From Gulosibacter massiliensis (GTDB lineage Bacteria > Actinomycetota > Actinomycetes > Actinomycetales > Microbacteriaceae), in the NCBI GenBank assembly GCA_943325745.2, contig CALPQP020000007.1:1-14001 (forward strand): 14,001 bases of DNA, given 5' to 3'. Position 1 is the first letter of the stretch. Each line of letters begins with the position of its first letter. This document shows positions 5,496 through 14,001 of the stretch, piece by piece. Under the pieces are notes generated by a model. It did not search any database. It saw only the letters and a list, made by a program, of their open reading frames with translations, and was not told the origin of the DNA. A program made the position numbers and the translations under genes.

Positions 5496-6887
5496 TTAGT
5501 GCGCTGCGGTTCGAATCAGCTTTTTGTTGACGAATTCGTCGAGCCCAAAGTGTCCCAGCTCGCGACCGAAACCGGATTTCTTGATTCCGCCGAACGGCAG
5601 GTCGACGTGCGAGTCGGTGTTCTCGTTGATATAGACCATGCCCGATTCGAGTCGATCGGCGACGTAACGGGTGTCGTCAGGGTTGGATCCAAATACTGCG
5701 CCGGACAGTCCGAATTCCGAACCATTCGCCAGCGCAATCGCCTCGTCCTTGTCCGCGACGCGGTAGACCACGGCGACAGGACCAAACAGTTCTTCGCTGA
5801 ACGCCCGTGCCGCGGGCGTGACGTTGGTGAGCAGCGTCGGCGCCATAAACGAACCGACATCCCCCACCCTGTGACCGCCCATCACGAGAGTCGCGCCGTT
5901 GGCGACGGCGTCGTCCACTTGCCCGATCAGGTCCTCAACGGCTCCGAGCGACGACAGCGGACCCAGTTTCGTTTCGGAATCGAGCGGGTCCCCCACGGTG
6001 TAGGTCTGCAGTTGGGCCCCGAAGCCCTCGACGAACCGGTCGTACACGGAATCGAGCACGATAAAGCGCTTCGCGGCGGTACACGCCTGGCCCGCATTGC
6101 TCATCCGGCCCGACGCCGCGGCGGCAATCGTGGCGTCAAGGTTCTCGTCGTCGAGGACGATGAACGGATCGCTTCCGCCCAACTCGAGCACGACCTTCGT
6201 GAGAGCGCGACCAGCGGCTTGGGCAACGGCGGCCCCTGCCTTCTCGCTTCCCGTCAACGAGACGCCCTGAACGCGCGGATCAGCAATGATTGTCTCGATG
6301 TCGCGGCTCTCGACAAACAGGTTGATGTAGGCGCCGTCCGGCAATCCCGCATCGCGGAAAATCTGTTCCTGCGCGAGTGCCGATTCCGGACAGTTGCTCG
6401 CGTGCTTGAGGATGATGGTGTTGCCAAGGAGCAGGTTTGGTCCGGCGAAACGCGCAACTTGATAGTAGGGATAGTTCCACGGCATGATGCCAAGGAGAAC
6501 GCCGAGCGATTGTGAGCGGACAATCGCGTGCCCACCCGACATCGGGTGCATGTCCTGATCGGCGAGGTGCCCCGGCCCCCGGGTGGCGTAGAACTCATAG
6601 ATATCGCCGACGAAACCAGCTTCGCCCCGACCTTGTCGTACCGGTTTTCCCATCTCGCGGGCGATGATGTCGGCGAGATGATTTTTGCGCTCGCGGTACA
6701 AATCCGCGACGCGCTGAAGCACTGCGGCACGTTCGGCGAGGGGTGTTGCGCTCCACGTCGTGTGAGCCGCATCGGCGCGCGAAATTGCTGCGGCGATGTC
6801 GGCAGAGGTCGCGCTCGGGAATTCGCGTTCGACGATTCCAGTGGTGGGATTGGTTACGGCATAGGGCATACATTCATTGTCGTTCAT
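5496..6887 (-). CDS. NAD(P)-dependent aldehyde dehydrogenase, succinate-semialdehyde dehydrogenase-like
   Basis: 463 residues from ATG 6887. ALDH superfamily residues are all in place: Asn138 in PWNYPYY, Lys161 in NTIILKH, the LTGSEKAG cofactor loop (211-218), general base Glu235 in ELGGSDPFIVLDD, and catalytic Cys269 in NAGQACTAAKR. The sequence resembles GabD/Sad-type semialdehyde dehydrogenases, so likely substrates are succinate semialdehyde, aminobutyraldehyde or its gamma-glutamyl form (inference). The start is chosen because a -10 TATTTT ends 8 bases before the ATG, consistent with a leaderless mRNA; a TTG two codons upstream and an ATG at 6869 are alternatives. It is divergent from the FadR-type regulator and precedes the TadE-like gene. 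Confidence 0.93.
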   Translation of the reverse strand: MNDNECMPYAVTNPTTGIVEREFPSATSADIAAAISRADAAHTTWSATPLAERAAVLQRVADLYRERKNHLADIIAREMGKPVRQGRGEAGFVGDIYEFYATRGPGHLADQDMHPMSGGHAIVRSQSLGVLLGIMPWNYPYYQVARFAGPNLLLGNTIILKHASNCPESALAQEQIFRDAGLPDGAYINLFVESRDIETIIADPRVQGVSLTGSEKAGAAVAQAAGRALTKVVLELGGSDPFIVLDDENLDATIAAAASGRMSNAGQACTAAKRFIVLDSVYDRFVEGFGAQLQTYTVGDPLDSETKLGPLSSLGAVEDLIGQVDDAVANGATLVMGGHRVGDVGSFMAPTLLTNVTPAARAFSEELFGPVAVVYRVADKDEAIALANGSEFGLSGAVFGSNPDDTRYVADRLESGMVYINENTDSHVDLPFGGIKKSGFGRELGHFGLDEFVNKKLIRTAAH

Positions 6888-6894
6888 TGACAAG

Positions 6895-6923
6895 AAAATA
6901 CGTTTATCCCTAAACGATTCACA
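6895..6923 (-). promoter_or_regulatory. Promoter of the aldehyde dehydrogenase gene, probably leaderless
   Basis: Minus strand -10 TATTTT (6895-6900) and -35 TGTGAA (6918-6923), spaced by exactly 17 bases. Seven bases separate the -10 from ATG 6887, so transcription would begin at or next to the start codon; there is no ribosome-binding site, which fits leaderless expression common in actinobacteria. The -35 is a weak match. The spacer is almost filled by the palindrome at 6901-6916. Confidence 0.5.
6901..6916. promoter_or_regulatory. Palindromic operator candidate for the FadR-type regulator
   Basis: CGTTTATCCCTAAACG: perfect 6-bp arms (CGTTTA/TAAACG) around a 4-base centre, abutting the -10 of the aldehyde dehydrogenase promoter and lying in the regulator's own upstream region. 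A nearly identical sequence recurs upstream of the permease gene (12880-12892). Position suggests repression of the dehydrogenase gene and autoregulation; binding by the neighbouring regulator is inferred. Confidence 0.6.
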
Positions 6924-6924
6924 G

Positions 6925-6930
6925 TATCGT
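6925..6930 (+). promoter_or_regulatory. Candidate -10 element of the regulator gene
   Basis: TATCGT, with a weak -35 (GTTTAT, 6902-6907) 17 bases upstream that overlaps the palindromic operator. Leader to GTG 6961 would be about 24 bases with a GGAGG site. Only a plausible placement. Confidence 0.35.
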
Positions 6931-6960
6931 GATTGAAGAGTTCAAGCGATCGGAGGTTAC

Positions 6961-7719
6961 GTGGGTGTCCTGAACGGTGTTCAATCCCAAGTTTTCCGGC
7001 CACTCCCGGACGTCCTTCGTGCTGAGGCAATTGTTGATCGCCTCTCGACCGCAATCTCTCTCGGACTTCTTCGTCGGGGCGAGCAACTGCCCATCGAGAA
7101 TCAACTGGCGGTCATGTTTGGCGTCGCCACAGCCACCGTCCGTGACGCGCTCCAAACGTTGCGCGAGCATGGGATCATCGAGACCCGGCGCGGGCGAAGC
7201 GGCGGCACCTTCATCATCGGTTCTCCTCGCCCAAATCTCGATGCTCTGCGTGACAGGTTGTTGGGTCTATCAATGGCGGAATTGCGCGATTTGGAAGACG
7301 AACAGGTGGCTACCGCCCTCGCGGCAGCGCGACTCATCATCGGACGCGCGTTTCCCCACGACTTCGACCGACTCGAACGGGTCGCTCGCACCATGGGCGA
7401 GGCGACAACCGCCGAGTCCTGCATGCGCGCCGACAGTAGATTCCAGAGCGAACTTGCGGTGCTTTCCCAGTCCGAGCGTCTCTTAGCAACACAGATGCGA
7501 CTATTGACCGAATCGATTGAAATCATGTGGACCGTTCTCACCGTCGAAGCCGACAGGGACCGGACGATGAGCGATCAACTGGCGATTGTGGCAGCTCTGC
7601 GAAGTCGAGACCTTATCGCCGCTGAACGGGCCATTCGAGACCACATCTCGCGCGACTTTTATCGACTGATTGCCGCTCGGCTTGATGTTTTGTACCCCAT
7701 TGGTCCGCCGAATGAGTAA
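6961..7719 (+). CDS. GntR-family transcriptional regulator, FadR (FCD) subfamily
   Basis: 252 residues. The N-terminal winged helix-turn-helix (about 20-86) has the GntR pattern: IVDRLSTAISLGLLRRGEQLP, then VATATVRDALQTLREHGIIETRRGRSGG in outline. The C-terminal all-helical FCD effector domain spans about 108-238. FCD proteins usually hold a metal through an Asp and three His; here the first two His positions appear to be Gln (Gln162 in DSRFQSEL and Gln206 in SDQLAIV), with only His228 (RDHI) kept, so the ligand pocket may work without metal (inference). GTG 6961 is used, with GGAGG at 6952-6956. It overlaps the Cache-domain gene and probably controls the surrounding amine genes. Confidence 0.92.
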   Translation: MGVLNGVQSQVFRPLPDVLRAEAIVDRLSTAISLGLLRRGEQLPIENQLAVMFGVATATVRDALQTLREHGIIETRRGRSGGTFIIGSPRPNLDALRDRLLGLSMAELRDLEDEQVATALAAARLIIGRAFPHDFDRLERVARTMGEATTAESCMRADSRFQSELAVLSQSERLLATQMRLLTESIEIMWTVLTVEADRDRTMSDQLAIVAALRSRDLIAAERAIRDHISRDFYRLIAARLDVLYPIGPPNE

Positions 7720-8437
7720 GGCGCGCAGCGACCTCGAACGCGCGAGTGACGCGATTGGTGAGTGGTTTACCGCCATCTATGGCGACTTGACCGCCATGTC
7801 GACGGCGTGCGAAAACCAACTTCGGGATTCCCGCGGTAAGAAAGCCGGTTTGACGGAACGAAATCTGCGCGCAATTCAACCTGCCGCCGCGGCCTTTCTC
7901 CGCCGGCACGACATCCCCACGGCGGCTGGAATCGTCGTTGGTCCGGGAATCATCGAAAACAAAGATGGGTCGATCGAGTGGTGGCAACGAGGTGACTCGG
8001 GTTCAACTCAACGAATCGTGTTCAACCTTTCGCCCGAGGACCCCGGGTTCTATGATTTTGTGACATTTGAATGGTTCAACGAGGTCGTCTCGAACGGAAA
8101 GCCCGCGATTCAGGGTCCCTACCTCGACTACGCCGGGATGGACAAGTACATTCTGACCGCCATGGTTCCCCTGTCCTTGGATGGCGTGCTTATCGGTACC
8201 GCGGGATGCGACACGGAGGTGCGGGAATTAGAACGCGTCGTCATGCCGATTCTGCGCACAATTCCTGGGGACGCGGCGCTCGTGTCGAAATTCGACCGAG
8301 TCATCCTCGGAAACTCCGGTCGCTTTCACGTAGGTAATCGTGTCGCCGCATTGTCGAAGGACGCAATCCGATGTGAAATCCCAGGTCCCGAACTCGGATT
8401 ACAACTCGTGGCGGCACCACGAACCCTGCACAGCTAG
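7712..8437 (+). CDS. Soluble Cache-domain protein, putative ligand sensor
   Basis: 241 residues from ATG 7712, which overlaps the end of the regulator gene by eight bases, so the two are co-translated. No signal peptide or membrane segment is visible, unlike the usual Cache domains of chemoreceptors and histidine kinases. Cache-like features: an N-terminal helical stretch (about 1-65), IVVGPGIIENKDGSIEWWQRGD (74-95, in outline), a DPGFYDF/EWF segment (110-122), and GPYLDYAGMDKYILTAMVPL (135-154) followed by VLIGTAGCD, the typical strand pair lining a small-ligand pocket. No output domain is present. The role is inferred: a cytosolic amine or amino-acid binding partner of the adjacent FadR-type regulator. 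Its stop overlaps that of the convergent hydrolase gene. Confidence 0.75.
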   Translation: MSKARSDLERASDAIGEWFTAIYGDLTAMSTACENQLRDSRGKKAGLTERNLRAIQPAAAAFLRRHDIPTAAGIVVGPGIIENKDGSIEWWQRGDSGSTQRIVFNLSPEDPGFYDFVTFEWFNEVVSNGKPAIQGPYLDYAGMDKYILTAMVPLSLDGVLIGTAGCDTEVRELERVVMPILRTIPGDAALVSKFDRVILGNSGRFHVGNRVAALSKDAIRCEIPGPELGLQLVAAPRTLHS

Positions 8438-9228
8438 CGCGCGGTCCGAACGAGTTTCGTCTGGTCAACGAACGCCTGAAACAGGGCGCGGCGATCAGAG
8501 GCTGAACCGTCATCGTCCTCGGGGTGCCACTGGACTCCAACGACCCACCGCGCCGACGGCATTTCCGTGCCCTCGACGATTCCGTCCTCGGCACGAGCGC
8601 TGACGACAAGTCCCTCGGCCACACGATTGACGGCTTGGTGGTGCCCGGAGCGAACCGCAACTCGGTCGCGCCCGAAAATCTCGTGAGTCTTGCTACCCGG
8701 TTCAAGGATGACGGGCTCGTCCTTAAACATCGGGTCGCCTGAACCGCCGCGGTGCGGGTGGTAGTTCTCGATGTCCGGAATGAGGTCGCCGCCAAGTGCC
8801 ACGTTGAGCAACTGCGATCCGCGACAGATGCACAGCATCGGCGCGTCTCGTTCGATCGTGGCCTTGATGATGTCAATGCAGTAGTCGTCCGCCGCGCGGT
8901 CGACACCGTACTCGTGGTTGACCGGCTCGGAGTGACCGTAAATTCGTGCATCGACGTCTCCGCCGCCCAAAAACAGAACTCCGTCGGCTAGGTCGGCCAC
9001 TGCCGCCGGGTCGAGCGGTGACTTGCTCGAATCCAACAGCACGACCTTAGCTCCGACATTGTTCAGCTCGGTCAGCGCGACACGAGTGAATCGAGCGACG
9101 AGCCCGGCGACTTCGTCTGTCATTTCGGGAATGTTGAGCGACACGATGACCGCGACGGTCGGCGCGTCACTCGGCATCGACGCGTTGCCCTCGGGCATGA
9201 CGTCGCTCGGTGTGATGTTGTGGCTCAT
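8434..9228 (-). CDS. Gamma-glutamyl-gamma-aminobutyrate hydrolase family protein (PuuD-like, class I GATase fold)
   Basis: 264 residues. Hydrolyses gamma-glutamyl amides, in the Puu pathway gamma-glutamyl-GABA to glutamate and GABA. The class I glutamine amidotransferase triad is visible: nucleophile Cys135 in LCICRGSQLLNVALGG, His235 and Glu237 in GVQWHPEDD; the oxyanion-side motif GGGDVDARIYG (88-98) and SGHHQAVN (194-201) fit the peptidase C26/PuuD family. A non-conserved N-terminal stretch of about 22 residues precedes the first strand; ATG at 9195 or 9174 could shorten it. ATG 9228 lies 5 bases after the stop of the solute-binding gene with little ribosome-binding site, implying coupling. 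Last gene of the five-gene operon; real substrate unproven. Confidence 0.9.
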   Translation of the reverse strand: MSHNITPSDVMPEGNASMPSDAPTVAVIVSLNIPEMTDEVAGLVARFTRVALTELNNVGAKVVLLDSSKSPLDPAAVADLADGVLFLGGGDVDARIYGHSEPVNHEYGVDRAADDYCIDIIKATIERDAPMLCICRGSQLLNVALGGDLIPDIENYHPHRGGSGDPMFKDEPVILEPGSKTHEIFGRDRVAVRSGHHQAVNRVAEGLVVSARAEDGIVEGTEMPSARWVVGVQWHPEDDDGSASDRRALFQAFVDQTKLVRTAR

Positions 9229-9233
9229 GGACT

Positions 9234-9932
9234 CTATTTTGCCAGAGGGAACGCCAAGTCCGGCATCCAGGTGCTCCACACCTTCGCGAGTCGACCGTCG
9301 GCGATGACCGCATCGAGCGCACTGTTGAGTTCCCCTAACAGTTCGGCGTTGCCCTTCTGTACTCCGATACCCCACGGGTTTCGGGTTTCAGCTGTGAAGG
9401 CCACGACGAAATCCGGATCGTTGTCGGCCAACGGAATCATGACGACGTCGTCATCAACGAACGCATCGACGGCTCCCGATCGCAGTGCCGCAATCATGTC
9501 TTCGAAGACACTCGGGCCCGTGAATTCGACGATCTCGGCGCCGACGATTGTCTGTGCGACCTTCAGGTTGGCGCTTCCCGCAATCGCGCCCACCTTGTAT
9601 CCGTTCATGGTGGTGTTCGAACGGGCGGGGTCATCGGCACGAACCAACACGGTCTCGTTGAAAACCGCGTAGGGCTGAGTGAAGTCCACGAGTGCGATAC
9701 GTTCGGGAATCATTCCCTGCCCACACCAGACCGCGTCCACTTCACCGCTTTGGACCATGGGGATCATGTTGTCCCAACCGGTGATGACCCACTCGATCTC
9801 GCGACCCATCACACTCGCGACGAGGTCGGCCGCGGCCGGTTCGTAGCCCGTGCGAACAATCCCGTCGGGACTGAGGTTGAACAGCGGTGGCGCATCGGCA
9901 TCGATGCACGCCAGACGGAGCGCGGCGCTCAC
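9234..9932 (-). CDS. Solute-binding protein family 3 domain, apparently cytosolic
   Basis: 232 residues from GTG 9932. Matches the bacterial extracellular solute-binding protein family 3 (amino-acid ABC binding proteins): GYEPAAADLVASVMG near 29-43, WDNMIPMVQSGEVDAVW (53-69), RIALVDFTQPY (78-88), then WGIGVQKGNAELLGELNSAL and a closing GRLAKVWSTW. However it begins directly with the first strand (SAALRLACIDADAPPLF) and has no signal peptide, lipobox or membrane anchor. The GTG overlaps the stop of the GS-like gene (GTGA) with GGGAG upstream, fixing this start. No ABC permease or ATPase gene is nearby. A cytosolic ligand-binding or enzyme-accessory role is inferred; cyclohexadienyl-dehydratase-like enzymes share this fold and remain possible. 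Confidence 0.82.
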   Translation of the reverse strand: MSAALRLACIDADAPPLFNLSPDGIVRTGYEPAAADLVASVMGREIEWVITGWDNMIPMVQSGEVDAVWCGQGMIPERIALVDFTQPYAVFNETVLVRADDPARSNTTMNGYKVGAIAGSANLKVAQTIVGAEIVEFTGPSVFEDMIAALRSGAVDAFVDDDVVMIPLADNDPDFVVAFTAETRNPWGIGVQKGNAELLGELNSALDAVIADGRLAKVWSTWMPDLAFPLAK

Positions 9933-11335
9933 GGGAGGGTCTCCCAGTACTGTGCGAATTCCCATTCGGTGATGACCCCGCAATAACGGGCCCACTCGTC
10001 TTTCTTGAGGTCGATGAAAACATCCCGCAACTCCGCGGGGAATGCTTTCTTCAACAGGGCGCTTCCTTCGAATTCCACGATGGCGTCTCCTAGTGTCATG
10101 GGCATGAGGTCAAACTTCACGACCTTTGCCTTCTCATCCGTGAGGGGATCCCCCGAATTGATCTTTCGTTCCAGACCGTCCTCGATTGACGCTAGAAGCG
10201 CCGTGTGGGACAGATAAGGATTCACACTCGAGTCGGGCTGGCGGTATTCCATTCGCCCGATCGACGAGATGCGAATCATCCCCGCGCGGGAATCGAGTCC
10301 CCACGATGGCGAGCTCGGCGCGAACTGACCGGCGTCCCAGAACCGCTTATACGAGTTGACGGTGCTCGCCATGATGGCGGTCGAGTCAGCGGCGTGGGTG
10401 AGCATTCCACCGACGGCCCAGCGGCCCACTTCCGATAAGTGAATCTGCGTGTTCCCGGGCTCGACACACGCGTTTGCGCCGTCCTTCCACAACGAGAGGT
10501 TGTGGTGGCAGCCGTTACCCATCAATCCGTTGAACGGCTTGGGCATGAATGATGCCGTGACACCCTGTTCGCGAGCGACCTGCTTGCAGATCTGTCGATA
10601 GGTGACAAGACGATCCGAGGTGAGTTCGACCCGGTCGTACATCCAGTTAAGTTCCAACTGTCCGTCGTCCTCGTAGTCGCCTTCGATCATGTCGAGGCCA
10701 AACGCCTGCGCGTAGCGAACCACTTGCTTGAAAATTGGGCGCATACGCTCGAGGTTTTCGACCTGGTAGGCAGGGCTCGAACCCTCCTTCTTGATGACCT
10801 CGAGTCCCGGTCCGGTCCACATCATTTCGGGCTCGGTGCCACTGCGCACCTCGTATCCGGTTCGAGCGGTGAATTCGTGGTGGGCGCGAATCAGCAACCC
10901 ACGCGAGTCGGTTTGTAGGGGGCGTCCGCCAACCTCGGCGAAGTGCATCGGTTCGTAGGCGAGGCAGAGCATCCGGGCAACCGACGTATCCCACGGCAGC
11001 ACGACGAAGGTCGATGGGTCGGGCAGCGCGATCATCTCTCGTGCACCGATTCCGCCGCCGATGAGCTCGCCCTCGCGAGTCGACTGCAGGTCGGCTACGG
11101 CGGTGCGGTGAAGGGCGATGCCCTTTTCGAGGTTGCGACGAAGGTGCCGTGCGGGCACCATCTTGGCCACAACTTTCGCACCGATCGTGGGAAGCATGTA
11201 ATAGATGAATTCGACGCCGGCGGCAGCGATTTTCTGTTCGAGGTCTTTGATGACGTCCGGACGCATGTTCGACGCCTGATGGCGAGAGAACGCGTCGTTG
11301 TCCGTCAGAGCACTCGTTCCGAGTTGGTCAACCAT
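9929..11335 (-). CDS. Glutamine synthetase-like gamma-glutamyl-amine ligase (type III/PuuA-like)
   Basis: 468 residues from ATG 11335 (AAAGGAG site 8 bases upstream). ATP-dependent joining of glutamate to ammonia or, in this subfamily, probably an organic amine. GS landmarks: metal Glu in GTEPEMMW (168, 170), Glu222 and Glu228 in DYEDDGQLELNW, the ATP-site block FMPKPFNG..GNGCHHNLSLW (263-283), SSPSWG..SRAGMIR (341-355) and RMEYRQPDSSVNPYL (361-375). The usual GNGMHxH motif reads GNGCHHN, so the second conserved His is Asn279. The C-terminal adenylylation tyrosine motif (NLY) is missing (KVVKFDLMPMTLGDA), so GlnE-type control is unlikely. Context with a PuuD-like hydrolase, P450 and permease supports an amine, not ammonia, as substrate (inference). 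Confidence 0.9.
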   Translation of the reverse strand: MVDQLGTSALTDNDAFSRHQASNMRPDVIKDLEQKIAAAGVEFIYYMLPTIGAKVVAKMVPARHLRRNLEKGIALHRTAVADLQSTREGELIGGGIGAREMIALPDPSTFVVLPWDTSVARMLCLAYEPMHFAEVGGRPLQTDSRGLLIRAHHEFTARTGYEVRSGTEPEMMWTGPGLEVIKKEGSSPAYQVENLERMRPIFKQVVRYAQAFGLDMIEGDYEDDGQLELNWMYDRVELTSDRLVTYRQICKQVAREQGVTASFMPKPFNGLMGNGCHHNLSLWKDGANACVEPGNTQIHLSEVGRWAVGGMLTHAADSTAIMASTVNSYKRFWDAGQFAPSSPSWGLDSRAGMIRISSIGRMEYRQPDSSVNPYLSHTALLASIEDGLERKINSGDPLTDEKAKVVKFDLMPMTLGDAIVEFEGSALLKKAFPAELRDVFIDLKKDEWARYCGVITEWEFAQYWETLP

Positions 11336-11379
11336 TGATGGGACTCCTTTGTCCTTGTTTTCGGTGGGGTGAATCGGGG

Positions 11380-11568
11380 TCAGTCGGTGACCAGGATGGC
11401 TTGCATTGGGCACACGTCGGCCGCCTCGTCGACGTCCGCGCGCAACGAGTCGTCCGGGTTCTCGTCAAACTGCAATACGCCTTTGTCGTCGAGGCGGAAA
11501 ACGGTCGGCGCCGAAAAAGTGCACTGACCGTGGTTGTCGCACTTGGCGCGGTCTACAGAAACGTGCAT
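11380..11568 (-). CDS. Small [3Fe-4S] ferredoxin, P450 redox partner
   Basis: 62 residues. Passes electrons from a ferredoxin reductase to a P450. The sequence has the actinobacterial P450-ferredoxin pattern: Cys10-DNHGQ-Cys16 and Cys53-Pro, with His13 where an extra cysteine would sit in a [4Fe-4S] protein; three cysteines therefore predict a [3Fe-4S] cluster. SAPTVFRLDDKGVLQ (19-33) is also typical. ATG 11568 is chosen over an upstream in-frame start because AAGGAG lies 6 bases before it. It follows the P450 by 26 bases and precedes the GS-like gene by 44 bases. No ferredoxin reductase gene is in the window. Confidence 0.95.
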   Translation of the reverse strand: MHVSVDRAKCDNHGQCTFSAPTVFRLDDKGVLQFDENPDDSLRADVDEAADVCPMQAILVTD

Positions 11569-11594
11569 GGTGTTCTCCTTGGTGTTGTTTGAGG

Positions 11595-12788
11595 TTATCG
11601 CTTGTCGAACGCGAGCGGAAGACGCACGGGTCCCGTGTTGCCCGAATCGGGCATCCATTCATCCTGCCCGTTGACTCGAATGTTCGTCATCCGCTGCGAC
11701 AGGGTCCTAAACGCGATCGCCATGTCCATTCGCGCAACAAAATGCCCGAGGCAGTGGTGCATCCCCCCGCCAAATCCATAGTGCGGCGCGCGTTCCACGG
11801 TGATGTCAATTCCGGGATTCGGGTACGCCGTTGGGTCGTTTCCGCTCACCTGGGTGAAGAAGTGAACGGTCGATCCGGCTGGCGCGTGAAGGTCTTCATA
11901 TTCGAAATCGACGACGGCTTCGCGCGTCACCCACGTGGTCGTAGGATTCGACCTCATGACCTCTTCCACCGCATTACGAGCCAGTTCCGGGTGTTTCGCG
12001 AGCAACTCCCATTGGTCGGGGTTTCGCATCATGGTCTGAATCCCAAGCCCTAGTTGATTGCGGGTCGTGTCCATTCCGCCAAAGATGAGAAGACACAGCG
12101 CGTTGCGAAGTTCGTCGTCGCTGAGGCTGTCACCATCTCGGTTCGCCTCGACGAGACGCGTCACGAGATCGTCGCGCGGATTCGCCTGGCGATCGGCGAT
12201 GAGCGCTTCGGCATACCCGTAGAGTTCGGCGAGCGCCGATTCAACCTCGGGCAGGTCTTCCTTAATCGTGATTCCCAGCGCTAGCCCGATCGAACTCGAG
12301 ATGCGGGCAATGGTCGGCCATTCACTTTCGGGGATTCCCGTCAGGATGCATAACACGCGTGTTGCGTAGGGTTCGGCAAAATCGTTGACGAACTCGAACT
12401 CGCCGTTGTCAATAAACCCGTCGACGATTTCAGCCGCAAGTTTTTCGAAGCGCGGAACATACGCTTCGATGTGTCGGAACGAGAACGCCGGGTTGAGCAT
12501 GCGCCTGATTCGGTGGTGGTCGTCGCCTTCGAGCACCAACAGGCACTTGGTCCACCAATCGTGGAACAACCCCGAGTGCACTCCGTTGTGGTCCGGCCAT
12601 TTTCCGCTACCCTGGCTCAAGCGGGTGTCTTTGAGAAGGATGCTGACGTACTCGTGGCGCAAAACTGCGAATCCGTAGTTCGTCGTGGCGTACCAGTGCT
12701 GTTCGCGGGCGTTTCGAACTGCTTCGGAATGCATCGCAAAGGACGGGTCCGAAATGTCCAGATACGGTACAGCGATTTCGGTTGACAT
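11595..12788 (-). CDS. Cytochrome P450 monooxygenase
   Basis: 397 residues, soluble bacterial class I type. C-helix HHRIRR (91-96), I-helix oxygen-activation motif GGMDTT (237-242), K-helix EVMR (276-279, ExxR), and the haem loop FGGGMHHCLGH (339-349) with ligand Cys346 are all intact. ATG 12788 is preferred to an upstream ATG because GAGG lies 8 bases before it. First gene of an operon with ferredoxin, GS-like ligase, solute-binding protein and PuuD-like hydrolase. That company recalls the mycobacterial pip/mor (CYP151) loci for piperidine, pyrrolidine and morpholine use; oxidation of a secondary amine or of a gamma-glutamyl amide is inferred, and the CYP family is not established from sequence here. 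Confidence 0.95.
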   Translation of the reverse strand: MSTEIAVPYLDISDPSFAMHSEAVRNAREQHWYATTNYGFAVLRHEYVSILLKDTRLSQGSGKWPDHNGVHSGLFHDWWTKCLLVLEGDDHHRIRRMLNPAFSFRHIEAYVPRFEKLAAEIVDGFIDNGEFEFVNDFAEPYATRVLCILTGIPESEWPTIARISSSIGLALGITIKEDLPEVESALAELYGYAEALIADRQANPRDDLVTRLVEANRDGDSLSDDELRNALCLLIFGGMDTTRNQLGLGIQTMMRNPDQWELLAKHPELARNAVEEVMRSNPTTTWVTREAVVDFEYEDLHAPAGSTVHFFTQVSGNDPTAYPNPGIDITVERAPHYGFGGGMHHCLGHFVARMDMAIAFRTLSQRMTNIRVNGQDEWMPDSGNTGPVRLPLAFDKR

Positions 12789-12837
12789 CGGGTGAACCTC
12801 ATTGTTCGAGCGACTCGGCCGCAAATGGATGTTGTGG

Positions 12838-12892
12838 TAAATCCTATGTCTATTTCCTAAATCCTACAATCATGAATGATTTAGGGAAAACG
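12838..12892. promoter_or_regulatory. Array of TAAATC/TTTAGG operator boxes between P450 and permease genes
   Basis: TAAATCCTA occurs at 12838-12846 and again at 12858-12866, and the inverted core GATTTA at 12878-12883: three cores starting exactly 20 bases apart, about two helical turns. The outer pair 12853-12863 and 12878-12890 also forms an imperfect inverted repeat (TTTCCTAAATC versus GATTTAGGGAAA). The box TTTAGGGAAAACG (12880-12892) differs by one missing base from the palindromic box near the regulator gene. Likely shared operator for both divergent transcripts; the binding protein is inferred. Confidence 0.55.
12841..12869 (-). promoter_or_regulatory. Promoter of the P450 operon
   Basis: Minus strand -35 TTGTAG (12864-12869), 17-base spacer, -10 TAGGAT (12841-12846). 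Predicted start near 12834, leaving a leader of about 46 bases that ends in the GAGG ribosome-binding site. The spacer contains GATTTAGGAAATAGACA, which carries the same TTTAGG box seen in the aldehyde dehydrogenase promoter spacer. Confidence 0.5.
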
Positions 12893-12895
12893 CCG

Positions 12896-12901
12896 TTGAC
12901 A
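12896..12901 (+). promoter_or_regulatory. Candidate -35 element of the permease gene
   Basis: A perfect TTGACA lies directly after the last operator box. No convincing -10 is found at 16-18 bases (TAGAGA at 15; a TATGTT further down at 12934-12939 lacks its own -35). The rest of the roughly 65-110-base leader up to ATG 13011 shows no riboswitch I recognise. Confidence 0.33.
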
Positions 12902-13010
12902 AAAATCATCTGCCACTAGAGAAAAAAACGCGCTATGTTTGCCCCAGCACAACGAGGTGCGACCAACGCCGGTGGCATCTCGCGATTAACACAACAATCG
13001 AAAGGTCACA

Positions 13011-14001
13011 ATGGCTACGTCAGACAAGGCCCAATCCGACAAGGCGCAACTTAGCGCCCTCGGATACGAAGGGTCCTACAACCGCTCCATGACCGTATGG
13101 AGCACAATGGCGCTCGGGTTCACCTACCTGTCGCCGCTCGTCGCAATCTACGCTCTGTTCGGTCTCGGACTCATGACCGGCGGACCCGGCTCCATCTTCT
13201 GGATCCTCATCGTCGGTGGTGGACAAATGCTCGTCGCACTCGTCATGGGCGAGGTCGTCTCGCAGTTCCCGATCGCCGGTGGAATCTATCCCTGGATGCG
13301 CCGCCTCGCCGGCCGCCGATCCGCATGGCTCGCCGCGTGGATTTACGTCTGGGCGATGCTCGTGACGATCGCGTCGGTTGCGGAATACGGCACCGGCTTC
13401 CTCGCCACCGTTCTTGGTGTCACGGAGGTCTCGTCAGAACTCACTCTGATCCTTGCGATCAGCCTCCTCGTGGTTGCGCTTCTCGTAAACCTCGGCGGAA
13501 CGAAGACCCTCGCACGAATCGCGACCATCGGTCTCGCTGCAGAGCTGATTGGTGTCGTCGGACTGGGCCTTTACCTGCTTCTGTTCGAACGCCAGAACGA
13601 GTTCAGCATCTTCACCGAAGGGTTTGCCTCGGCTGATTATGGCACCGCGTTCATGGGTGCCGCCCTCGTCGGTCTCTTCATGTTCTACGGTTTTGAGGCC
13701 TGTGGTGACGTCGCCGAAGAAGTTGGCGACGCCGCTCGTGAAGTTCCGAAGGCCATGATTCTTACCATCCTCATTGGTGGCGTCTCGGCCCTCGCTTCGT
13801 TCTCGGGATATGTTCTCGCCGCGTCGCCCGAACTCCTCGCCGCCACCGCAGCGGGAGAGAACGCCGACCCGATTGGAACCATCCTCAAGGACGTCCTCGG
13901 AGAGACCGGCGCACGCCTGTTCCTCGTCGGTGCCGTCGTTGCATTCATCTCGTGCTGCTTGAGCCTGCAAGCTGCTGCAAGCCGCTTGCTGCACTCGTTT
14001 G
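13011..14001 (+). CDS. APC-family amino acid/polyamine permease (3' end cut by window edge)
   Basis: Open from ATG 13011 (AAAGG 6 bases upstream) to the right edge: 330 residues of a family usually near 450-550. Amino acid/polyamine/organocation superfamily: TM1 start with GFTYLSPLVAIYALFG (36-51), the loop GGIYPWMRRLAG (90-101), and the TM6-7 region GLFMFYGFEACGDVAEEVGD followed by AAREVPKAM (221-249 overall), matching the family's GFE..(x)EE..(x)R.VP.A pattern. About eight membrane segments are visible. The cytosolic N-terminus carries a tandem SDKAQ-SDKAQ repeat. It diverges from the P450 operon across a shared operator region, so it probably imports that operon's amine substrate (inference). 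Confidence 0.92.
   Translation, partial: MATSDKAQSDKAQLSALGYEGSYNRSMTVWSTMALGFTYLSPLVAIYALFGLGLMTGGPGSIFWILIVGGGQMLVALVMGEVVSQFPIAGGIYPWMRRLAGRRSAWLAAWIYVWAMLVTIASVAEYGTGFLATVLGVTEVSSELTLILAISLLVVALLVNLGGTKTLARIATIGLAAELIGVVGLGLYLLLFERQNEFSIFTEGFASADYGTAFMGAALVGLFMFYGFEACGDVAEEVGDAAREVPKAMILTILIGGVSALASFSGYVLAASPELLAATAAGENADPIGTILKDVLGETGARLFLVGAVVAFISCCLSLQAAASRLLHSF

Follow-up and report, generated by a model that had tools for sequence, protein, structure and literature searches.

The 14,001-nucleotide stretch analyzed here (the window), from contig CALPQP020000007.1 (C7) of a Gulosibacter massiliensis metagenome-assembled genome (MAG; 0.9 Mb, 141 contigs, 66% complete), carries a minus-strand operon encoding, in this order, a cytochrome P450, a ferredoxin, a glutamine synthetase (GS)-like ligase, a protein of the SBP_bac_3 solute-binding protein (SBP) fold and a PuuD-like class I glutamine amidotransferase (GATase). 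The P450 and ferredoxin genes are separated by 26 nt, the ferredoxin and GS genes by 44 nt, and the SBP and GATase genes by 5 nt, while the GS and SBP genes share 4 nt (GTGA) at their stop and start codons. The operon is flanked by two divergent gene pairs, an APC permease (plus strand) reading away from the P450 and a GntR/FCD regulator (plus strand) reading away from an aldehyde dehydrogenase (ALDH; minus strand). An original prediction, made from the letters of the sequence, had listed these genes, calling the regulator FadR-type, and Pfam recovered every one of them. It had overlooked a Cache-like gene that overlaps the stop of the GntR gene by 8 nt. The identical cassette order, ALDH included, recurs in a 95% complete genome of the genus (G014, locus L127).

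CYP151 kinship of the P450

The P450 gene (11595-12788, minus strand; Pfam p450, 2.6e-23) encodes 397 residues, in which the heme-cysteine stretch FGGGMHHCLGHF and the I-helix stretch GGMDTT can be read. Among the best 120 of 3,220 in a phmmer comparison were relatives with 68-72% identity in Arthrobacter, Paenarthrobacter, Sinomonas, Glutamicibacter and Brevibacterium luteolum. A relative in Mycolicibacterium vaccae (L099) pointed to protein P0144, which bears no CYP name of its own and is named by its source as a Mycobacterium smegmatis cytochrome P450. The window P450 is 56% identical to P0144 over 390 residues and 56% identical to P0167 (Q5EGS5_9MYCO); a Gulosibacter P450 (P0096) is 53% identical to each of the two. 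The published identities of Gulosibacter BioI/PipA are ∼53% to M. smegmatis PipA and ∼52% to MorA of strain HE5 (PMC9477822). Because the P0096-P0144 value lies close to these figures, and given its source name, the sequence of P0144 fits M. smegmatis PipA. Members of a P450 family share more than 40% identity with the family reference, and the 56% identity of the window P450 to P0144, the presumed CYP151 reference, exceeds this value.

Relatives of the window P450 were collected by a contig scan that gave 352 matches, the best 80 of which were kept as loci; 58 of these have flanks of 7 kb or more in either direction and are termed well covered. The M. smegmatis genome itself lies outside the 297 genomes drawn, the best match there being 97%. 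Twenty P450 loci not of the CYP151 type, hand-picked from weaker P450 matches in genomes of the same family or order, served as controls, with four genomes used more than once. A tree was built from 39 P450s, namely 28 of CYP151 type (20 of these taken from the 80 loci), 10 of the 20 controls and the P450 of the Ipu (isopropylamine) pathway on plasmid pTC1. All 28, including the window P450 and P0144, formed one clade with 100/100 support, leaving the controls and the Ipu P450 outside. By sequence, the window P450 is of the CYP151 type. The placement against CYP151 that the original prediction had proposed as a check groups the protein with the M. smegmatis P450 and apart from the Ipu P450, to which it is 27% identical.

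The kinship of the locus with the mycobacterial pip/mor loci, also suggested in the original prediction, extends beyond the P450 clade to the neighboring genes. Like the pip/mor (CYP151) operons of Mycolicibacterium, Mycobacterium and Gulosibacter, the window has a GntR regulator, a ferredoxin directly after the P450 and a GS after the ferredoxin. Four mycobacterial loci (L148 and L150-L152) have the order GntR-Cache-P450-ferredoxin-GS, with a Cache gene as in the window. The linked GATase, SBP, ALDH and permease genes are described here for the window cassette. A member of the family, recombinant MorA of strain HE5, is reported to have oxidized morpholine together with its adjacent reductase and ferredoxin (PMC9477822).

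The window ferredoxin (11380-11568, minus strand; Pfam Fer4_15, 4.6e-12) is a single-cluster protein with a CxxHxxC...CP pattern, which we take to mark the [3Fe-4S] type. The dedicated ferredoxin reductase of mor-type operons is absent from the cassette genes of the window, whereas 42 of the 80 relatives encode both a ferredoxin and a reductase. The pip layout also has no reductase beside the ferredoxin, so the window is still compatible with pip/mor membership. The remaining relatives comprise 15 with a ferredoxin only (the window type), 17 with a flavodoxin and an FprA-like reductase, one with a flavodoxin alone (L066) and 5 without any partner, two of which (L030 and L097) end at or just past the P450 gene. 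The flavodoxin replaces the ferredoxin in 18 of the 80 loci, among them L048, L049, L062, L072 and other loci of Leucobacter, Gulosibacter or Brevibacterium type, and the FprA-like reductase of 17 loci is encoded divergently from the P450 alongside it. A search of the MAG, at its 66% completeness, with an Arthrobacter-type reductase gave a best match of only E = 9e-4. With a reductase of the Gulosibacter (FprA-like) type as query, a single gene on contig C36 was matched over residues 3-165; as judged by this match it is a possible but unproven partner of the window P450.

Conservation of the cassette

Cassette genes were counted by blastp with identity thresholds and a second time by tblastn with fixed identity thresholds, set to demand relatives of the cassette genes rather than any GS. 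Among the 58 well-covered loci, blastp detected the GS in 57, the SBP in 57, the GntR regulator in 54, the Cache protein in 54, the GATase in 52, the permease in 49, the ferredoxin in 41 and a window-like ALDH in 15. The corresponding numbers for the best 80 of the 352 matches were 74, 72, 67, 68, 67, 63, 57 and 19, and tblastn gave 72 (GS), 72 (SBP), 67 (GntR), 66 (Cache), 66 (GATase), 62 (permease) and 57 (ferredoxin) in the same 80. By tblastn, GS, SBP, Cache, GntR, GATase, permease, CoA-transferase (CoAT), glutaryl-CoA dehydrogenase (GCDH) and GabT genes of the cassette kinds were each found in 0 of the 20 control loci. The controls contained 2 ferredoxins, 4 ferredoxin reductases, 2 flavodoxins and one FprA-like reductase, and 7 of the 20 had some ALDH (one of PuuC type and one of aminobutyraldehyde dehydrogenase type). 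The cassette is nearly fixed among the 58 well-covered relatives and is not a chance association. One exception, L096, has a GS (40% identity) and no other cassette member.

Pairwise distances of the cassette proteins correlated with those of the P450, with r values of 0.82 for GS (72 loci), 0.81 for GntR (65), 0.80 for ferredoxin (57), 0.79 for Cache (67), 0.67 for SBP (71) and 0.63 for GATase (65). The loci nearest to the window P450 (L024-L033) come from MAGs labeled Microbacteriaceae, Micrococcales, Gulosibacter or Actinomycetota, and the cassette as a whole is spread over groups as far apart as mycobacteria, small-genome Microbacteriaceae MAGs and Halomonadaceae.

Several loci depart from the common layout. 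Alphaproteobacterial versions occur on a Ruegeria plasmid (L106) and on plasmid p2 of Paracoccus sp. TOH (L107), with P450s 49-50% identical to that of the window; both have two different GS-like genes adjacent, plus GATase genes, and in L107 PuuC-type ALDHs and a flavoprotein reductase adjoin the P450. In Millisia brevis (L071) a CYP151-type P450 gene is followed by the SBP gene, and no such GS was found in 21 kb. The hexahydro-1,3,5-trinitro-1,3,5-triazine (RDX) degradation region of Gordonia KTR9 plasmid pGKT2 (L104, 8458-15469), which we take to be the xplA region from its gene names, shares GntR-Cache-P450-GS with the window cassette and looks built on a CYP151 cassette with a shortened GS. 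Its Cache gene is annotated "cache domain-containing protein". The GS there forms one open frame with a reductase, matches query residues 4-397 only and lies beside a second P450; no match to the GATase, SBP or permease was found in the 21-kb stretch.

The GS-like ligase, the hydrolase and the binding proteins

The GS-like ligase (9929-11335, minus strand; Pfam Gln-synt_C, 5.4e-72) was mapped in 12 alignments onto the canonical GS of the MAG (L002), which keeps the D, Y and E residues of the ammonium site. The place of D50 is taken by His-76 in 12 of 12 alignments, and that of E327 by Phe-338 in 4 or Gln-337 in 8; the Phe-338 pairing alone keeps the following Ala-Pro in register. The place of Y179 fell on Tyr-190 in 9 alignments and in a gap in 3, and a HMMER alignment to 8ool gave Ala-189. 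Conservation over 73 GS sequences is 70 for His-76, 73 for Ala-189, 73 for Tyr-190, 72 for Gln-337 and 72 for Phe-338. Both E327 and D50 are described as essential for glutamine synthesis, and the amine ligases GlnA4 and PauA7 retain neither, with F331 or W296 (Salmonella numbering) at the E327 place (PMC6529630). Since the D50 and E327 places are replaced as in GlnA4 and PauA7, the residues of the window GS make it a likely amine ligase. The gamma-glutamylation of an amine put forward in the original prediction is accordingly probable, judged from these two key residues. The best NCBIfam model for the window GS was type III GS, at 277 against a cut-off of 470. A third GS-like gene of the MAG (L003, G000:C33, 1498-2289), truncated where its contig ends, likewise carries Phe in the position of E327 and may also encode an amine ligase.

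A GS-like gene adjoining a mycobacterial CYP151 P450 is already on record (PMC10516948). Overexpression of GMOLON4_438/3052 has been taken to accord with the use of molinate as nitrogen source, with ammonium assimilation cited (PMC9477822). The available passages on the pip/mor operons give their GS no amine-ligase role, and none was found for the GS of CYP151 operons in the literature searched, in which subscription journals were mostly uncovered. The sequence comparison made here adds that the GS of pip/mor operons is probably an amine ligase, and it adds two predicted cytosolic binding proteins.

The GATase (8434-9228, minus strand; Pfam Peptidase_C26, 1.9e-45) has the expected catalytic residues Cys-135, His-235 and Glu-237, kept in 66, 66 and 65 of 66 sequences. 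The ALDH of the window (5496-6893, minus strand; Pfam Aldedh, 3.8e-135) scored best, among NCBIfam models, against NF006915 (484 bits; cut-off 730). A PuuC-type ALDH was assigned by best-match class in 16 of the 80 loci; the two tested had PRK09847 as best NCBIfam model, with 607 and 639 bits, below the 850 cut-off. In L051, where the order is GS-SBP-ALDH-GATase, the ALDH is of this type. The ALDH of L032 passes the aminobutyraldehyde dehydrogenase cut-off (675 against 615).

The SBP gene (9234-9932, minus strand; Pfam SBP_bac_3, 4.5e-26) encodes what the original prediction called a solute-binding protein. The fold stands; the protein has no signal peptide and is predicted to be cytosolic, because its start sits directly at the first β-strand with no N-terminal extension. 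With starts in relatives set at the codon nearest to that of the window, 52 of 71 loci show the same 4-nt overlap between the GS and SBP genes. Within the N-terminal 40 residues, hydropathy over 17 residues peaks at 0.95 for the window protein, and one of 72 loci (L042, 1.63) exceeds 1.6. No ABC importer gene was present among the nine typed cassette genes, and a role as part of an ABC importer was rejected for want of an export signal and of importer genes in the cassette. Invariant over 73 sequences are 31 residues, including Cys-9, Asp-11, Cys-70, Gln-72, Glu-93, Asn-122, Arg-78 and Asp-160 to Asp-162, numbered by one of two countings (the other runs one higher). The last two, aligned to AncQR, presumably correspond to the amino acid carboxylate and ammonium places of the fold. 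The AlphaFold model (predicted local distance difference test score (pLDDT) 91.6) was nearest by E-value to arginine- and glutamine-binding proteins and, by TM-score among the 50 matches listed, to the opine-binding protein SocA (0.89).

The Cache-like protein (7712-8437, plus strand) gave only weak Pfam Cache matches below cut-off and was identified by sequence matches in the PDB, the best being the amino acid receptor PctA (5e-5), with TlpQ and PctC also matched. Cache domains are normally extracytoplasmic. This one has no evident signal or membrane segment, and its gene is coupled to that of the GntR regulator, with a 4-nt overlap in 37 of 66 loci. Its maximal 19-residue hydropathy is 1.56 in the window and exceeds 1.6 in 12 of 68 loci (up to 1.98), nearly always at residues 139-158, which are strands in the window model; 62 of 63 APC permeases exceed 1.6 in the same comparison. 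Three loci (L076, L097 and L100) exceed 1.6 near the N-terminus, so that solubility is uncertain for some members. Foldseek comparison of the model (pLDDT 90.2) gave amine receptors or their complexes in 6 of the top 8 rows (CqsR with serinol, McpU with putrescine three times and TlpQ twice; TM-scores 0.59-0.74, 13-15% identity), closely followed by a uracil receptor and amino acid receptors. The Arg of the PctA stretch YDPRSRPWY, which binds carboxylate, is replaced by Phe-119 in the window, and Tyr-114 and Asp-167 are present in 68 of 68 sequences. Both proteins may have been relocated into the cytosol from an extracellular position, although we hold this only tentatively.

The GntR/FCD regulator (6961-7719, plus strand; Pfam GntR, 4e-14; FCD, 1.7e-13), in the position of PipR, would govern both divergent promoters, and the Cache protein may sense the amine for it. 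A candidate operator, a 36-bp inverted repeat with 16-nt arms that are 81% complementary, lies at 12853-12888 between the P450 and permease genes and is partly conserved in three loci of the genus (L024-L026). The motif TTTAGGGA occurs twice in the window, once per divergent promoter region (6907-6914, minus strand, between ALDH and GntR; and 12880-12887). None of 200 shuffles reached two copies of this motif, which was picked after inspection. As a conserved operator it was rejected, being present at both promoter regions in L024 only, of the 6 relatives (5 distinct) from which both regions could be extracted. To the left of position 5500 the open reading frame list includes genes we take to be smpB, ftsX, ftsE, prfB and tad-like genes.

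A proposed glutamyl-capped amine route and its alternatives

From the gene content, homology, conservation and residue replacements observed, we infer substrate, step order and sensing. On balance we favor a CYP151-type (pip/mor-type) operon that serves growth on, or supplies nitrogen from, a cyclic secondary amine, with glutamyl capping. The permease (13011-14001, plus strand, running off the window end; Pfam AA_permease_2, 1.5e-24) would import the amine. The P450 and ferredoxin, with a reductase encoded elsewhere, would hydroxylate the carbon next to the nitrogen, upon which the ring would open to an omega-aminoaldehyde. The GS-like ligase would cap the freed primary amine with glutamate, so that the aldehyde could not reclose to a cyclic imine. 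The ALDH would oxidize the capped aldehyde and/or a later semialdehyde, and the PuuD-like GATase would split the product into glutamate and either 4-aminobutyrate or 5-aminovalerate, omega-amino acids that transamination of the GabT type would take on to succinate or glutarate. More speculatively, the SBP, made with the GS, may hold the N-substituted glutamine (a gamma-glutamyl-amine) or pass it on among the ligase, the oxidation step and the GATase, while the Cache protein, made with the GntR regulator, reports the amine to that regulator, giving a P450-fed, glutamyl-capped cyclic-amine route with capture of the intermediate inside the cell.

Genes flanking some relatives suggest, by their sequences, C5 ring amines. 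The CoA-transferase III of L032 has succinate-glutarate CoA-transferase as its best model (392; cut-off 750), and the acyl-CoA dehydrogenase beside it matches solved glutaryl-CoA dehydrogenases best (3sf6, 1.3e-149); the aminotransferase of L034 is closest to GabT models (613; cut-off 639). CoAT, GCDH and GabT genes occur in 18, 16 and 11 of the 80 flanks, and all three together in 6; their presence would fit a route from piperidine through 5-aminovalerate to glutarate. In the genus of the window, a GCDH-like gene is found in 12 of 15 genomes (11 full length, 63-67% identity), a GabT-type aminotransferase in 15 of 15 (9 of them aligning along most of the query with 45-49% identity) and CoA-transferase matches in 13 of 15, mostly 40-43% identical to that of L032. 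The GCDH-like and GabT-type genes of G014 lie away from the cassette. The GabT-like gene of the MAG (L124, G000:C45, 1131-2451) matches in two frames, probably through an assembly frameshift.

A number of observations weigh against the favored route or leave its steps loosely constrained. The third ammonium-site residue, Y179, is probably kept as Tyr-190. Neither the amine-ligase residues, which cannot tell capping before oxidation from capping after it, nor the P450-GS distance correlation, which fits any step order, fixes the sequence of events. On Rhodococcus opacus plasmid pR1CP1, the 9 kb around a P450 with 50% identity contain no listed GS, the nearest GS match on the plasmid being ∼20 kb away, and the cassette-type GATase was not found in 6 of the 58 well-covered loci (L054 has another GATase). 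The window ALDH is SSADH (succinate-semialdehyde dehydrogenase)-like by sequence, not PuuC-like, and therefore may take its turn once glutamate has been removed. Only 14 of the 80 loci have both CoAT and GCDH, and neither is in the window; with genus CoA-transferases at ∼40% identity, the case for the C5 route is weaker in the window organism than in Arthrobacter or Mycolicibacterium. Its substrate may be a ring amine of either C4 or C5 type.

The strongest alternative, which we consider less probable than the ring-opening route, is the order of the Ipu pathway. There, capping of a primary amine by the GS would come first, the resulting gamma-glutamyl amide would be the substrate that the P450 hydroxylates, and the GATase would finally set the oxidized amine free. 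In Arthrobacter aurescens TC1, IpuC is described as making gamma-glutamyl-isopropylamide, from which a P450 system forms gamma-glutamyl-L-alaninol; the next step is ascribed to a postulated amidotransferase (PMC6776027). Plasmid pTC1 of Paenarthrobacter aurescens TC1 carries GATase-P450-ferredoxin-ferredoxin reductase-ipuC; as in the window, the genes for an amidotransferase, a P450, a ferredoxin and a GS-like ligase are clustered there. The P450 and GS also stay together in the two alphaproteobacterial plasmids, with P450s of 49-50% identity, and the amino acid-type site of the cytosolic SBP could bind an N-substituted glutamine. However, the P450 and the GS are each 27% identical to their pTC1 counterparts (38% for one GATase), and orthology to the Ipu operon was rejected on these values; the listed pTC1 features include no SBP or Cache protein, and a GAF-domain gene follows ipuC. 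Further, the window P450 belongs to the CYP151-type clade, a member of which is reported to oxidize free morpholine (PMC9477822), and the GCDH, CoAT and GabT genes of some relatives better fit a ring-opened omega-amino acid.

A Puu-type putrescine or polyamine pathway, with the P450 in place of PuuB, appears unlikely. The window does share a GS-like ligase, C26-family GATase, ALDH and APC permease with that pathway, PuuC-type ALDHs occur among the relatives, and the Cache model lies near polyamine and other amine receptors. The GS and GATase nevertheless score far below the PuuA and PuuD cut-offs (203 against 650 for gamma-glutamylputrescine synthetase, and 61 against 266), and the CYP151 kinship points to ring amines. 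The original prediction had named a PuuB homologue constantly accompanying these genes as evidence against itself; such a constant association does not hold here, as no DAO-family (PuuB-type) match was found on contig C7, nor was PuuB among the Pfam-typed shared flank open reading frame clusters, the 80 flanks not having been searched domain by domain. DAO-family genes exist elsewhere in the genus, and in G014 one lies, with GabT and aminobutyraldehyde dehydrogenase-like genes, ∼60 kb from the cassette. Least probable is that the GS merely re-assimilates ammonium freed from the substrate, as suggested for Gulosibacter from the GMOLON4_438/3052 overexpression on molinate nitrogen (PMC9477822): Y179 may be kept, but every alignment puts conserved substitutes in the positions of D50 and E327, making an ammonium-assimilating GS unlikely, the canonical GS of the MAG retains D, Y and E, and the PuuD-like hydrolase would have no obvious use.

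The favored ring-opening route is a variant of known designs rather than a wholly new pathway. The original prediction had offered P450 oxidation of a gamma-glutamyl amide as a new design, but the Ipu route had already been published (PMC6776027), as had a parallel glutamyl-capped route for aromatic amines that uses a dioxygenase (PMC11335346), and oxidation of glutamyl-capped amines is therefore not new. Of that interpretation, the pip/mor kinship and a probable glutamylation survive and the novelty of the amide oxidation does not.

Taken together, the residue, context and conservation evidence turns the puzzling GS of CYP151 operons into an amine-ligase candidate that can be tested at the bench. 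Alongside it, two unusual, predicted cytosolic relatives of extracellular sensors are conserved in 57 (SBP) and 54 (Cache) of the 58 well-covered loci. Because the cassette is so widespread, cyclic amines of natural origin may serve as nutrients more often than one would gather from work on pollutants.

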